From positions 1-8,017 of the forward strand of contig DAHWHT010000239.1 of NCBI GenBank assembly GCA_027335515.1: a stretch of DNA of 8,017 nt, given 5' to 3'. The notes under the pieces were generated by a model. It was not told where the DNA came from. It did not search any database and worked only from the letters and a program-made list of their open reading frames with translations. The DNA is from Clostridia bacterium. GTDB taxonomy: Bacteria > Bacillota_E > RBS10-35 > JAJYVN01. Both the position numbers and the translations under genes were made by a program. Every line of letters starts with the position of its first letter. The first letter of the stretch is position 1. Positions 1,894 through 7,421 of the stretch are shown here, in pieces.

Positions 1894-2184
1894 CCGCCGG
1901 TGGCCACTTCGTGGCGGACCCGCCTCCGCCTGCGGCCATGGCTCCACTCCTCGACCCGACACCGATCGGGCCGGCGGCGGTCGACGAAGTTCACCCGAAG
2001 ACAAGTCGATGCAGGGTTCCCCGCGCCGTCGGCGTAGGCAGACCATGGGACGCGGTCGTCCCGCTCCCGCGGCGGCGTGCGCCAACCTGGAAGGCCGGCG
2101 CGATCTGGAGCAGGTGGCGGCACAGCGCGGGGCGGACCGGCTTCAAGGCAAGCACGGCCGCGATCGAAGACGAGGGGGATCAGG
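1894..2184. other. Divergent intergenic region between fucosidase and Gfo/Idh gene
   Basis: No believable gene is seen here; the open frames have no recognisable domain. The region presumably holds promoters for both divergent genes, but no convincing -35/-10 pair stands out in this GC-rich sequence. Small perfect hairpins are GCCAC-TTC-GTGGC near 1905-1917 and GGGACG-CGGT-CGTCCC at 2047-2062. The Gfo/Idh ribosome site GAGGGG is at 2172-2177. Confidence 0.5.
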
Positions 2185-3198
2185 ATGGCGGGAGACACGA
2201 TTCGTTTGGGCTTCATCGGAACGGGAGGTAACGCCCGCGGCCACATTGCGCAGATGGCCCGGCTGGCGGACGTAGAGATCGTCGCCTTCGCCGACCCGAG
2301 CGCGCAGAGCCTGCAACTGGCCACGGAGCGCCTGGGGCGGTCGGTGCCGACCTTTGGCGACTACCGCGAAATGATCGAGCGGACCGAGTTGGATGCGGTG
2401 GTCATCAGCACCCCGCACACCCTGCACTACGAACAGGCGCTCTACGCCCTGGACCACGGCCTCCATGTCGAAGTGGAAAAGCCCATGGCCTGCACCAGCG
2501 CCCACGCCCGGGCCCTGGTGAACAAGCAGCGCGAGACCGGCAAGGTGCTGTGCATCGGCTATCAGCGCCACTTCGATGCGCGCTTCCGCTGGATCCGCGA
2601 CCAGATTGCCTCCGGCCGCATCGGGCGGGTCACCTTCCTTCAGTGCTACCAGAGCCAAAACTGGCTCCGCGGCCAGCGCGGCACCTGGCGCACCGACCCG
2701 AGCCTGGGCGGCGGCGGACAACTCAACGACTCGGGCAGCCACCTAGTCGACATCGTCCTTTGGATCACCGGCCTCGAGGCGGCGGAGGCCAGCGCCTACA
2801 TCGACCGGCGCGGGGAGCGCGTCGACATCAACTCCGCCGTCAGCGTGCGCTTCACCAACGGGGCCGTGGGCAACATCTCGATTGTCGGGGACCAGGTGGC
2901 CAAGGGTATGTGGGAAGACGTCACCATTGCCGGCGACAAGGGCATCATCTGGATGCGGCAGGGCGGCCACGTCTCCATCGCCACAGAGGATGCCATGGAG
3001 CCGACGGCGGTGACCGACTTTGGTCCATCGGTCGGGAGCAAGGACCAAAACCTCATCGACGCCATCCTGGGGCGCGCCGAGGTCCAGGTGCCGCCCATCT
3101 GCGGGCTGCGCGTAATCGAACTCACCGAAGCCGTCTGGCGGGCCGCCGACCAAGGGCACCCGGTGGCCGTCGAAAAGGCCGACGTGGCCGTTTCCTGA
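2185..3198 (+). CDS. Gfo/Idh/MocA family NAD(P)-dependent oxidoreductase
   Basis: The 337-residue protein has the two-domain architecture of the Gfo/Idh/MocA family, which oxidises or reduces sugars, inositols and related polyols with a nicotinamide cofactor. The N-terminal Rossmann fold shows LGFIGTGGNARGH (8-20) with Gly9, Gly12 and Gly14. ISTPHTLH (74-81) follows, then the family signature EVEKPMA (96-102) with catalytic-type Lys99. GGGGQLNDSGSHLVD (175-189) provides Asp182 and His186 at the substrate site, and the C-terminal part is the usual mixed sheet domain. Length is normal. ATG 2185 is chosen because GAGGGG lies seven bases upstream and the Rossmann motif begins eight residues in; the frame extends upstream to 2077 with a non-conserved basic sequence. 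It is divergent from the GH29 fucosidase, which suggests but does not prove a role in fucose or other deoxysugar metabolism. The substrate cannot be told from sequence alone. Confidence 0.92.
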   Translation: MAGDTIRLGFIGTGGNARGHIAQMARLADVEIVAFADPSAQSLQLATERLGRSVPTFGDYREMIERTELDAVVISTPHTLHYEQALYALDHGLHVEVEKPMACTSAHARALVNKQRETGKVLCIGYQRHFDARFRWIRDQIASGRIGRVTFLQCYQSQNWLRGQRGTWRTDPSLGGGGQLNDSGSHLVDIVLWITGLEAAEASAYIDRRGERVDINSAVSVRFTNGAVGNISIVGDQVAKGMWEDVTIAGDKGIIWMRQGGHVSIATEDAMEPTAVTDFGPSVGSKDQNLIDAILGRAEVQVPPICGLRVIELTEAVWRAADQGHPVAVEKADVAVS

Positions 3199-3310: not shown

Positions 3311-3685
3311 TCAGGAGACCCCCCACTTGAAGGTCATGATCCAAATCGACATCCCGACCAGGACAAACGCGATCACAAACGACAGCCCGAGGGGCAGGAT
3401 CTGCCAGGCCGGTCCCCGACTCTCGCGGATGTGCATGAACACGCCGAGTTGCAGCATGGCCTGACCGGCCGCCAGCGCCAGAACCAGGGCACCCAGGGTC
3501 GCCGCCGGCAGCAGGTGCTGGACGACCAAATACACCGCCGCAGCGGTCAGCAGCAGCGAGCCCACGTAACCCCAAACCTGAGCCCAGGGAAACCCCTCTT
3601 GCGCGAAATGCGGGTTGAGAAACTCGAATCCGACCTCCGTCTCGGTTGCATGGGTCGAGACGGCGTCCTGTACCTCGGCTTGCAT
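3311..3685 (-). CDS. qoxD: Cytochrome aa3-type quinol oxidase subunit IV
   Basis: This is the last gene of the oxidase operon. The 124-residue product has a hydrophilic N-terminus (1-35) and three membrane segments at about 37-59, 62-85 and 95-119. That is the architecture of the bacterial subunit IV family (QoxD/CyoD/CtaF), a small accessory subunit that packs beside subunits I and III and assists assembly. The LGVFMHIRES segment (80-89) after the second helix is typical of the family. The frame is open to 3715, but ATG 3685 is preceded by GGGGAGG with an eight-base spacer, which decides the start. A 49-base gap separates it from qoxC. Low sequence conservation in this family means the assignment rests on topology, the HIRES-like motif and position. 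Confidence 0.9.
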   Translation of the reverse strand: MQAEVQDAVSTHATETEVGFEFLNPHFAQEGFPWAQVWGYVGSLLLTAAAVYLVVQHLLPAATLGALVLALAAGQAMLQLGVFMHIRESRGPAWQILPLGLSFVIAFVLVGMSIWIMTFKWGVS

Positions 3686-3693
3686 GCGCTTCG

Positions 3694-3700
3694 CCTCCCC
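3694..3700 (-). promoter_or_regulatory. Ribosome binding site of qoxD
   Basis: GGGGAGG on the minus strand lies eight bases before ATG 3685. It selects this start over the in-frame codon at 3715. Confidence 0.8.
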
Positions 3701-3720
3701 TTGCCACCGCCGCAAACCAC

Positions 3721-3733
3721 CCGGCGACGCCGG
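3721..3733 (-). other. Small hairpin between qoxC and qoxD
   Basis: The 13-base dyad CCGGC-GTC-GCCGG on the minus strand begins one base after the qoxC stop codon. It could separate the translation of the two genes or slow RNA decay. The 5-bp stem is short, so the role is uncertain. Confidence 0.3.
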
Positions 3734-3734
3734 A

Positions 3735-4394
3735 CTAGGTGATCCGGGAGCCCAGATACACCACGGTGAAGATGAAGACCCAGATGATGTCCAGGAAGTG
3801 CCAGTACAGTGAGAAGGTATAGACCTTGCGCGCCGTGACCACGTTCAGACCGCGGCGCAGCACCTGCACGATGATCGCCGTGGCCCAGACGATGCCAAAC
3901 AGGACGTGCGCCCCGTGGGTGCTGACCAGCAGAAAGAAGGAGGACAAAAAGGCACTGGTCTGCCAGGAGGCGCCCCGGGCCACGTCCGCGATGAACTCGT
4001 GCAGTTCCAACCCGAGAAAGCACGCCCCCAGCAGCAGGGTGACGGCCATCCAGGCCAGCATCGCCCCCCGGCGTCCGCGGCGCATGTACCAGACGGCGAT
4101 CCCGACGGTGAAGCTGGAAGTCAGAAGAAACAGCGTCTCGGCAATCGCGGATCCGAGGCTGAAAAGCTGGGCGCCGGACGGGCCCGCGGCCACCATCGGC
4201 CGATACACGGCGTACGAGGCAAACAGGCTCGCGAAGATCAGCAGATCAGTGACCAGCAGCATCCAGAACCCGGTGATCTTCAGGCTCTGCTCCTCGTCGG
4301 AGAACTCCAGCGGCACCCCCGCCAAGTGCCGCGCCGGCTCGGACGCGAACCGGATGGGCGGGGACGCATCCGTCTTTTCCAGCGGCAGACTCAC
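3735..4394 (-). CDS. qoxC: Cytochrome aa3-type quinol oxidase subunit III
   Basis: The 219-residue integral membrane protein belongs to haem-copper oxidase subunit III (QoxC/CyoC branch). It has five predicted helices at about 41-63, 79-104, 110-132, 147-176 and 195-215, and a hydrophilic N-terminus of about 35 residues. Family signatures are GLELHEF (128-134), STHGAHVLFG (158-167) and YWHFLDIIWVF (197-207). Subunit III has no redox centre; it stabilises subunit I and the entry of the D proton pathway. The start is GTG 4394: GGGGAGG lies eight bases upstream, inside the end of qoxB, and GTGA overlaps the qoxB stop by four bases, a sign of translational coupling. The longer frame to 4529 overlaps qoxB heavily and has no family sequence. 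Confidence 0.95.
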   Translation of the reverse strand: MSLPLEKTDASPPIRFASEPARHLAGVPLEFSDEEQSLKITGFWMLLVTDLLIFASLFASYAVYRPMVAAGPSGAQLFSLGSAIAETLFLLTSSFTVGIAVWYMRRGRRGAMLAWMAVTLLLGACFLGLELHEFIADVARGASWQTSAFLSSFFLLVSTHGAHVLFGIVWATAIIVQVLRRGLNVVTARKVYTFSLYWHFLDIIWVFIFTVVYLGSRIT

Positions 4395-6391
4395 GCCGGC
4401 AACCTCCCCAACGACGCCTCGATGCGGCGGATTTCGTCGGCGCGCACGTGCTTGTGCTGATCCTGGTCGAACCAGGCATACCCCAGCGCGGCACCCACCC
4501 CGGCCAGCCCCAGCAGGGCGATCACCCACCAGGAGAACACCAGACCGAAGCCCAGGACGAAGAAGGCGGCGCCAAGGAAGAACGGATAGGCCGTGTTCCT
4601 GGGCAGTTCAAGCCCGTGGATGTCCTGGGGACGCAGGCTGGGCGTGGCGGCGCTCTGGTCCGGTCCCTGGCCGACCTGCTTCATGGCCCACCAGGCGTCC
4701 AGGCTGGAGACCGTGGGGATGCGGGCAAAGTTGTATTCCGGCACCGGCGAGGGCAGTGACCACTCCAAGGTGCGGCCGTTCCAGGGATCGCCGCCGACCT
4801 CGCGCTCCGCGTGGCGCATGCTCCAGACCACGTTGTACACGAGTACCAGGAAGCCCGCGCCCATCATGAAGGCCCCCACCGTCGAGATCACGTTGAGCAG
4901 GTGCCAGCCGTGACCGGCGGGATAGGTCCACATGCGCCGCGGCATACCTTTGAAACCCAGAAGATACTGCGGTCCGAAGGTCACCCAGAACCCGATCAGA
5001 AACAGCCAGAAGGCCCACCTGCCCTGGCGCTCGTCGAGCCGGTAGCCGAACATCTTCGGCCACCAGTAATACATGCCCGCCAGCAACCCAAAGACGGTGC
5101 CGCCGATCAGCACGTTGTGGAAGTTGGCCACCAGAAAGTAGCTGTTGTGCACCTGGTAGTCGGCGGGAACCGTTGCCAGAAACATCCCGCTCGCGCCACC
5201 GATGGTGAACGTCGGGATGAAGCCCATCACATACAGCATCGCGGTCGTAAAGCGGATGCGGCCGCCCCACATGGTGAAGATCCAGTTGAAGATCTTGACG
5301 CCGGTCGGAATGGCGATCAGCATCGTCGAGATCCCGAAGAAGGCATTGACCGCGGCGCCGGCGCCCATCGTAAAGAAGTGGTGCACCCAGACCCCATAGG
5401 ACAGCACCATGATCGCGGCCATGGATACGACCATGGAGGTGTATCCAAACAGCCGCTTGCCGGAGAAGGTGGGCACGACCTCGGAGAACACGCCGTAGGC
5501 GGGCAGCGCCACGATGTAGACCTCTGGATGTCCAAAAAGCCAGAAGAGGTTGACATACATCATGGGCATGCCGCCGTGGCTCATGGTGAAAAAGGCGGTA
5601 TGCGCCAAACGGTCCAGCAGGGTCATCAGCAGGGCGACCGTCAGCGGCGGAAACGCGAACAGGATGAGGACCGAAGTGTTCAGGGCCGCCCACGCGAACA
5701 TCGGCATGCGCATCAGCGTCATCCCTGGGGCCCGCATCCGCAGAACCGTGACCAGGAAGTTGATGCCGGTGATGGTGGTGCCGATACCGGAAATAAGCAG
5801 GGATACCAAAAGATAGTTCGTCCCCACGCCCGGGTTGAAGTGCAGCTCGGTGAGCGGCGGGTATGCCGTCCAGCCCACATTCGGCGCACCTCCCACCACA
5901 AAGGCCAGGTTGAAGAGGGCCGCCGCGAAGGCAAACAACCAGAAGCTCACGGCGTTGAGCCGCGGAAAGGCCACATCCCGCGCCCCGATCATCAACGGGA
6001 TGACGGCGTTGAACAGCGCGAAGATGAAGGGCATGGCCATAAAGAAGATCATGATCACGCCGTGGGTGGTAAAGACCTCGTTGTATTCCTCGGGACCGAT
6101 GAAGGGCGTCTGCGGCATCGCCAGGTTGACGCGCATCATCAGCGCGTCGACGCCGCCGCGAAACAGCATCAGGATCGCGGCGATCAGGTACATGGTACCG
6201 ATCTTCTTGTGGTCGACGGTGGTCAGCCAATCGCGCCAGAGCCAGCCCCACTTGTGGTGGCGCGTCAGCCAATAGATAAGGTAACCCACTCCGGCGACCA
6301 TCATTACGTCCGCGCCGATCTCGGTCGGCCGGTGCGTGTTGGGCGGAAACAGCGTGTGCAGCAGATACGGGACAAACGCGGGCACGGTCAT
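4391..6391 (-). CDS. qoxB: Cytochrome aa3-type quinol oxidase subunit I (with Asn at the high-spin haem ligand position)
   Basis: The 666-residue catalytic subunit of a haem-copper quinol oxidase spans the membrane about 14-15 times and would couple quinol oxidation to O2 reduction and proton pumping. Motifs: VDHKKIG (59-65), RGGVDALMMR (78-87), FTTHGVIM with low-spin haem His110, GARDVAF with D-channel Asp139 plus Asn128 and Asn146, GHPEVY with CuB His288, Glu290 and cross-linking Tyr292, WVHHFF with CuB His337 and His338, TGVKIFNW with K-channel Lys366, and VANFHNVL with low-spin haem His425. In E. coli CyoB numbering (recalled) most of these are offset by four. In that alignment position 423, normally the His that binds the high-spin haem, is Asn (codon AAC, 5125-5123), and position 102, the quinol-site His, is Glu (GAA). 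RGG..DALMMR and the subunit II type place it in the Qox/Cyo branch. ATG 6391 is chosen as the first ATG, after AAGGAGG; the frame extends to a GTG at 6418. Length is normal for QoxB and no frameshift is seen. Confidence 0.95.
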   Translation of the reverse strand: MTVPAFVPYLLHTLFPPNTHRPTEIGADVMMVAGVGYLIYWLTRHHKWGWLWRDWLTTVDHKKIGTMYLIAAILMLFRGGVDALMMRVNLAMPQTPFIGPEEYNEVFTTHGVIMIFFMAMPFIFALFNAVIPLMIGARDVAFPRLNAVSFWLFAFAAALFNLAFVVGGAPNVGWTAYPPLTELHFNPGVGTNYLLVSLLISGIGTTITGINFLVTVLRMRAPGMTLMRMPMFAWAALNTSVLILFAFPPLTVALLMTLLDRLAHTAFFTMSHGGMPMMYVNLFWLFGHPEVYIVALPAYGVFSEVVPTFSGKRLFGYTSMVVSMAAIMVLSYGVWVHHFFTMGAGAAVNAFFGISTMLIAIPTGVKIFNWIFTMWGGRIRFTTAMLYVMGFIPTFTIGGASGMFLATVPADYQVHNSYFLVANFHNVLIGGTVFGLLAGMYYWWPKMFGYRLDERQGRWAFWLFLIGFWVTFGPQYLLGFKGMPRRMWTYPAGHGWHLLNVISTVGAFMMGAGFLVLVYNVVWSMRHAEREVGGDPWNGRTLEWSLPSPVPEYNFARIPTVSSLDAWWAMKQVGQGPDQSAATPSLRPQDIHGLELPRNTAYPFFLGAAFFVLGFGLVFSWWVIALLGLAGVGAALGYAWFDQDQHKHVRADEIRRIEASLGRLPA
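4403..4409 (-). promoter_or_regulatory. Ribosome binding site of qoxC inside the qoxB 3' end
   Basis: GGGGAGG on the minus strand is eight bases before GTG 4394. It fixes the start that overlaps the qoxB stop in GTGA. Confidence 0.8.
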
Positions 6392-6402
6392 CGATCCCCC
6401 GG

Positions 6403-6409
6403 CCTCCTT
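6403..6409 (-). promoter_or_regulatory. Ribosome binding site of qoxB
   Basis: AAGGAGG, fully complementary to the 16S tail, lies eleven bases before ATG 6391 on the minus strand. A GGGGG run four bases before the ATG could also contribute. It makes the GTG at 6418 unlikely as the start. Confidence 0.7.
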
Positions 6410-6437
6410 GCGCAACACTGGAATCGGGACGCCGGTG

Positions 6438-7421
6438 TCAGCTGCGGCCCCCCGACGCAGCCTTGCCCGAGCCGGCGGCCGGCATCAGCCCCATGTTCAT
6501 CTGTCCGTACCCGCGCACGGCCGGAACGTATTGCCCGCCGGAGAGGGTGAACCGGTGCGAGATCGCGGGAAACGACCCGGCCGGATAGCCGGAGTACGTG
6601 GCCGGTCCGGTGGTGCCAAAGGCCCGCAGGCGGCGATACCCGCCGGCCGTCAGGGCCGGGGCTGACCGCTGCGTCGTCTGCACCCAGGTGGCAAAGCCGG
6701 AGGCCGACACCACTTTGACCGAGAAGAACATCTTCTCGAACTGCAACCCGGAAAAGTTCGCGCTGTGCCCCCAGAACACACCGGTGTGGTCGGCCTGCAG
6801 CCACAGCGGCAGCACCTCACCCGGCATCGTGTACTCCATTCCGCCGAGTTGGGGCACCCAAAAGGTGTTCATGGCCGAGTCCGCGGTCAGTTCGAACAAC
6901 ACGGGCTGGCCCTCCGGCAGGACCAGGTGGTTGACCGTGGCGAGGTGCTGGCCCGGATACTCGAAAAACCACTTCCAACTCAAAGACGTCACGTCGACCA
7001 CCAGCGCCTTGCGCGCGTGGGGCATCCGGGCCAGGGCATACGTCTGGCGCAGCGTGGGTACGGCGATAATCGCCACGATCGCAACGGGGATGACAAACCA
7101 GATCAGTTCCAACACCCGGCTCTCGTGCCAGTCCGGCACGTAGGCCGCGCGCCGACCCCGACGGTCCCGGAAGCGCACCGCCGCGATGGCGAGCAAGACG
7201 AAGACAAAAAGGATGACGACGGCCATGGCGCCGCCGGCCAGAAGCATCAAACGAAGCTCGCTTTGTCCCACCGGCCCGACGGGGTGCAGGAGCACATACT
7301 GCGGCCCGCAGCCGGACAGGAGCGCCGCGGCCGCGACCAACGCGCCCCACCGAAGCGTGCGGCCCGCAGGGAACCCGGCCGCGAACCCAGAGGACACCCG
7401 AAGCCACATGCGCTGCGCCAC
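6438..7421 (-). CDS. qoxA: Cytochrome aa3-type quinol oxidase subunit II (lipoprotein, no CuA)
   Basis: This is the first gene of the operon. The 327-residue product has a signal sequence ending in the lipobox LLSGC with Cys38 as the expected lipidation site, two membrane helices (about 57-83 and 103-124) and an exterior cupredoxin domain (about 139-250). VTSLSWKWFFEYPGQ (144-158), MNTFWVPQLGGMEYTMPG (184-201) and LWLQADHTGVFWGHSANFSG (206-225) match the quinol oxidase subunits QoxA/CyoA. Cys38 is the only cysteine, and the CuA His and CxxxC ligands are absent, so electrons come from quinol rather than cytochrome c. The tail from 251 to 327 is Gly/Ala/Met-rich and less conserved. GTG 7421 is selected by GGAGGAG seven bases upstream; ATG 7409 would be too far from it. 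qoxB follows after 46 bases. Confidence 0.96.
   Translation of the reverse strand: MAQRMWLRVSSGFAAGFPAGRTLRWGALVAAAALLSGCGPQYVLLHPVGPVGQSELRLMLLAGGAMAVVILFVFVLLAIAAVRFRDRRGRRAAYVPDWHESRVLELIWFVIPVAIVAIIAVPTLRQTYALARMPHARKALVVDVTSLSWKWFFEYPGQHLATVNHLVLPEGQPVLFELTADSAMNTFWVPQLGGMEYTMPGEVLPLWLQADHTGVFWGHSANFSGLQFEKMFFSVKVVSASGFATWVQTTQRSAPALTAGGYRRLRAFGTTGPATYSGYPAGSFPAISHRFTLSGGQYVPAVRGYGQMNMGLMPAAGSGKAASGGRS

Follow-up and report, generated by a model that had tools for sequence, protein, structure and literature searches.

The window, the whole stretch of 8,017 nucleotides that was analysed, carries a four-gene oxidase operon on its minus strand, in the order qoxA (7421-6438), qoxB (6391-4391), qoxC (about 4403-3735) and qoxD (3715-3311). 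The qoxA-like gene codes for subunit II of a quinol oxidase in an open frame that contains PF00116 and PF02790 and matches TIGR01432 (QOXA) best, at 207 bits against a curated cut-off of 240.95. The qoxB-like gene begins with an ATG at 6391-6389 and encodes subunit I, a protein of 666 residues in an intact frame. The qoxC-like gene (subunit III, PF00510) probably starts at a GTG at 4403 and overlaps the end of qoxB; its best family is TIGR02897, with 213.4 bits and a curated cut-off of 239.9. The qoxD-like gene (subunit IV, PF03626) scored best against TIGR02901 (71.2 bits, curated cut-off 85.6). The best families across 3311-7421 are thus those of the four quinol oxidase subunits, each with a score below the NCBIfam curated cut-off, and the NCBIfam models for these subunits may under-call this branch.

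Subunit I matches PF00115 over the entire profile (positions 1-436 of 436), scoring 507.2 bits where the cut-off is 34.8, which places it in the haem-copper oxidase superfamily. Among NCBIfam profiles, its best family was the QoxB equivalog TIGR02882 (915.5 bits); the CyoB family TIGR02843 gave 816.3 bits. The TIGR02882 score lies below the curated cut-off of 1015.5, so the model does not call the protein a QoxB equivalog. The CuA motif of subunit II is a Cys pair. The segment of the window's subunit II where CuA enzymes carry that pair, GHSANFSGLQFEKM, contains no Cys, as expected of a quinol oxidase. On sequence grounds, the locus is an ordinary qoxABCD operon predicted to encode a quinol oxidase of the aa3-600 or bo3 kind. 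Next to the operon lie an open alpha-L-fucosidase frame on the minus strand (598-2085; PF01120 nearly complete, 278.8 bits) and, diverging from it, a GFO/IDH/MocA oxidoreductase frame on the plus strand (2077-3198).

We compared the predicted enzyme to characterized quinol oxidases. The aa3-600 oxidase of Bacillus subtilis (QoxABCD) is encoded by a four-subunit operon and has a subunit II without CuA cysteines, and the window's operon shares both properties. The window's subunit I aligns with its B. subtilis counterpart (PDB 6KOB, 6KOC, 6KOE) over residues 21-661 with a score of 789.3 bits, the first gaps appearing beyond about residue 537. The two differ in that the window carries Asn423 where the B. 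subtilis enzyme has His415, and in that the window's protein falls below the QoxB curated cut-off. Homology to Escherichia coli CyoB (1FFT) extends over residues 32-658 (670.4 bits), but CyoB has His419 where the window has Asn423. The two enzymes probably also use a different quinol and haem. Of 8000 proteins scored, the 120 at the top of the ranking include the QoxB-like sequences P0003 to P0121, which are 61 to 85% identical to the query over 91 to 100% of its length and share the same motif context. All of them have His at the column where the window has Asn. Named proteins in this group include those of Sulfobacillus and Alicyclobacillus, which suggests that the nearest kin of the window's subunit I are aa3-600-type quinol oxidases in Sulfobacillus-like Bacillota and that the window itself derives from a relative of these bacteria. 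One related genome (G004, the source of locus L009) has three subunit I genes: two code for close homologues of the window's QoxB (72% and 64% identity), the third for a more distant subunit I (38%).

The first-pass annotation had reported Asn at residue 423 of QoxB in place of an otherwise invariant His ligand, and the letters of the minus strand bear this out. The codons TAC TTT CTG GTG GCC AAC TTC CAC AAC GTG CTG read YFLVANFHNVL, with codon 423 (AAC) at 5123..5125 and a T at plus-strand position 5125. AAC differs from the His codon CAC by a single base, a change of the G:C to T:A class. Two residues on, the codon for His425 (5117..5119, minus strand) is intact, and this His is present in 212/212 aligned relatives. 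Subunit I of the haem-copper oxidases has six His ligands, of which two bind the low-spin haem, one the high-spin haem and three CuB. In CyoB, the high-spin haem has His419 as its axial (proximal) ligand, while the low-spin haem is bound by the His at position 421 (H425 in the window). The assignment of column 423 to the high-spin haem holds on alignment: N423 lies opposite His415 in subunit I of the aa3-600 oxidase from B. subtilis (6KOB), and the residue of the relative P0003 in the same column, H421, lies opposite His419 of CyoB (1FFT).

The rest of the active site is present, as had also been claimed. Five of the six His ligands are kept (H110, H425, H288, H337 and H338), so the high-spin position, occupied by Asn423, is the one at which the set of six is broken. 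N128, D139, N146, E290, Y292 and K366 are present as well, and each of these residues, like the five retained His, is invariant in 212/212 aligned relatives. We assume that Y292 is the cross-linked Tyr of helix VI, E290 the end of the D channel and K366 the Lys of the K channel. The presence of these three residues identifies the protein as an A-type haem-copper oxidase. Were the base genuine, the high-spin haem would be left with no proximal ligand, and the protein, judged by sequence, should be inactive or badly assembled.

This consequence would not follow if another His served as the proximal ligand, in which case nothing would have been lost. We tabulated every His in the protein against the 212 relatives. 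A single one, H494 (codon at 4910-4912, minus strand), is unique to the window's protein in this comparison. H494 is, however, 71 residues downstream of position 423, in a variable segment (YPAGHGWH) soon after an RR pair, and its column in the relatives holds mostly L, M or F. The RR pair upstream of it is also present in 6KOB, and the topology would put the loop around H494 at the propionate face of the haems. Around residues 423 and 425 the alignment to 6KOB is free of gaps, which leaves H425 in its own position. We therefore reject the idea of a substitute His, raised in the first-pass annotation, and give it almost no credence.

We examined whether Asn423 recurs among homologues of subunit I. 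Column 423 is His in all 212 aligned relatives (132 database proteins and 80 loci), which are not fully independent, some loci and proteins being one gene reached twice. The proteins, compared as cluster representatives, were all the rows listed by two protein searches minus the window's own, the first search listing the top 120 out of 8000 proteins scored; the loci were 80 kept from 597 relatives. In these 80 loci the His codon is CAC in 60 and CAT in 20. The two proteins closest to the window's, P0003 (85% identical) and P0004 (84%), both have His at this column. The second of these searches, centred on the motif (residues 402-443) and using exact words that included the Asn, yielded 33 proteins out of 40 candidates, and Asn was found in the window's own protein only.

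Genomes sampled from the phylum of a relative gave the same picture. A protein search of 398 genomes, with at most three candidates scored per genome so that match counts are lower bounds, found matches in 31 genomes and 68 matches in all. We fetched one locus from each of 30 of these 31 genomes, and all 30 have His at the column; this set overlaps the 80 loci above by at least two genomes. We also searched the 398 genomes with a degenerate DNA pattern for the Asn form of the motif. It matched 13 genomes, once each, about the same rate as a reversed control (16 matches). We retrieved ten of the 13 matches, with flanks of some 1.5 kb to either side where the sequence extended that far, and no HPEVY-like motif lay near any of them; the other three fall in genomes without a haem-copper oxidase match by protein search. 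The corresponding pattern for the His form matched 29 of the 398 genomes, among them 22 of the 31 with a protein match, which indicates that only about 31 genomes are informative and that the DNA pattern detects roughly 7 in 10 of them. Of 677 plasmid records matched, none among the matches listed covered at least 80% of the query. Thus His occupies the column in 212/212 and 30/30 sequences and Asn in none, and the recurrence that would have marked a shared variant was not found.

We next consider how constrained the remainder of the gene is. In the alignment of 213 sequences, 119 columns have no more than one deviating sequence, and at these columns the window differs solely at position 423. 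The same columns contain 19 one-sequence departures spread over 17 sequences, and isolated substitutions at otherwise fixed positions are therefore no rarity in such data. Most of the other lone departures are more conservative, such as F to Y, V to I or G to A, and a few are equally drastic (H61A in L076 and G343D in L068). A smaller alignment likewise showed lone departures to be common, with 28 of the first 60 relatives deviating at one or more columns that are 98% conserved in the rest. In that alignment the window also carries D531E, at a column conserved in 123/125 sequences. In a separate comparison, its changes at well-conserved columns number 6, slightly more than the 5 in P0004 and the 3 in P0003. 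The difference between 6 and 3 changes and the D531E substitution are too little to mean much.

The position of the window in a tree places the change on its own lineage. A FastTree phylogeny of 63 proteins grouped the window with P0004 (support 0.941) and then with P0003 (0.995). Both of these sisters have His, and parsimony therefore assigns the change to the window's own tip. We looked for relaxed constraint in branch length and root-to-tip rank and found no sign of it: the terminal branch of the window measures 0.107, close to the median of 0.108, and its root-to-tip rank is 21 of 59. What needs explaining is a single base change on the terminal branch of the window, within a gene that is otherwise constrained.

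The other subunits were compared in the same manner. Decay of the operon was considered and rejected, as subunits A, C and D are intact at nearly all conserved columns. In qoxA, 0 of 41 conserved columns deviate when compared with subunit A from 60 of the 60 loci searched (L001 to L060). In qoxC, 2 of 47 deviate (F to L and G to S; 59 of 60 loci), and in qoxD, 0 of 12 (51 of 60 loci). The operon looks functional and, as far as its sequence tells, under normal selection.

One reading of the Asn form is a functional variant, in which Asn, water or another residue would provide the fifth ligand or the site would stand empty, and the oxidase would have an altered chemistry or a non-catalytic role, regulatory or structural. 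With the operon complete and every other catalytic residue that we checked in place, the protein could still fold and could bind copper and the low-spin haem. From a new function one would, however, expect co-varying changes or additional carriers. Residues 408-434 are identical to those of P0003 except at 423, which leaves no co-variation near the site. The branch is not accelerated, and Asn occurs in no relative examined, neither among the 212 nor among the 30. To our knowledge, haem-copper oxygen reductases hold their high-spin haem through a histidine; an active enzyme with a genuine Asn at this site would be an exception to that rule. No natural haem-copper oxidase lacking just this ligand was announced in the literature as searched, whose coverage is incomplete and in part limited to excerpts; this is a weak observation, and we do not claim its absence from print. 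We consider a functional variant very unlikely.

A more plausible explanation is a real and very recent inactivating mutation, in which the sampled cells carry the base, the oxidase is inactive for want of its high-spin ligand and another terminal oxidase supports respiration. Such a mutation would leave a gene that is otherwise intact and conserved, being too young for decay, and this is what we observed. Four genomes of the phylum sample (G003, G004, G331 and G373) each have at least three matches to haem-copper subunit I; with several subunit I genes present in related genomes, the loss of one oxidase might be tolerated. There is a precedent of sorts in Acetobacter. One report (PMC10715153) describes a COX1-like protein said to have lost all conserved metal-binding residues, whose gene is clustered with ctaB and is retained in the genome. 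As described there, the Acetobacter protein resembles the window's in being a subunit I homologue with loss of cofactor ligands, but the window's protein is changed at one ligand of six and keeps the others. Set against inactivation, no second carrier of Asn was found among the relatives and phylum loci examined, and an assembly would rarely show a loss-of-function allele that is present at low abundance. We regard a recent inactivating mutation as possible but rather unlikely.

We favor, with some confidence, a sequencing or assembly error in the metagenomic contig as the most likely cause of Asn423. The only contig listed for the Asn423 protein is the window itself, which is short (8017 bases). 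The protein cluster to which it belongs (P0002) has two member sequences and one contig, and the second member may be another gene call of the same contig. Were the base an error, the organism's main population would encode the usual His ligand and would make a normal oxidase that takes electrons from menaquinol and reduces oxygen to water. Changes from G:C to T:A arise in living cells. They can also arise ex vivo from oxidised guanine, according to one study (PMC12390751). The class of change therefore cannot separate an error from a mutation. The first-pass annotation had offered three readings of the site. Its novel variant finds no backing, given that Asn is absent from every relative examined, the sister proteins have His and there is neither acceleration nor co-variation; its other two, a one-base error and an early inactivation, both fit the data. 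More generally, a departure at an active-site residue that amounts to a single base on a single contig needs inspection of the reads before an enzyme variant is called.
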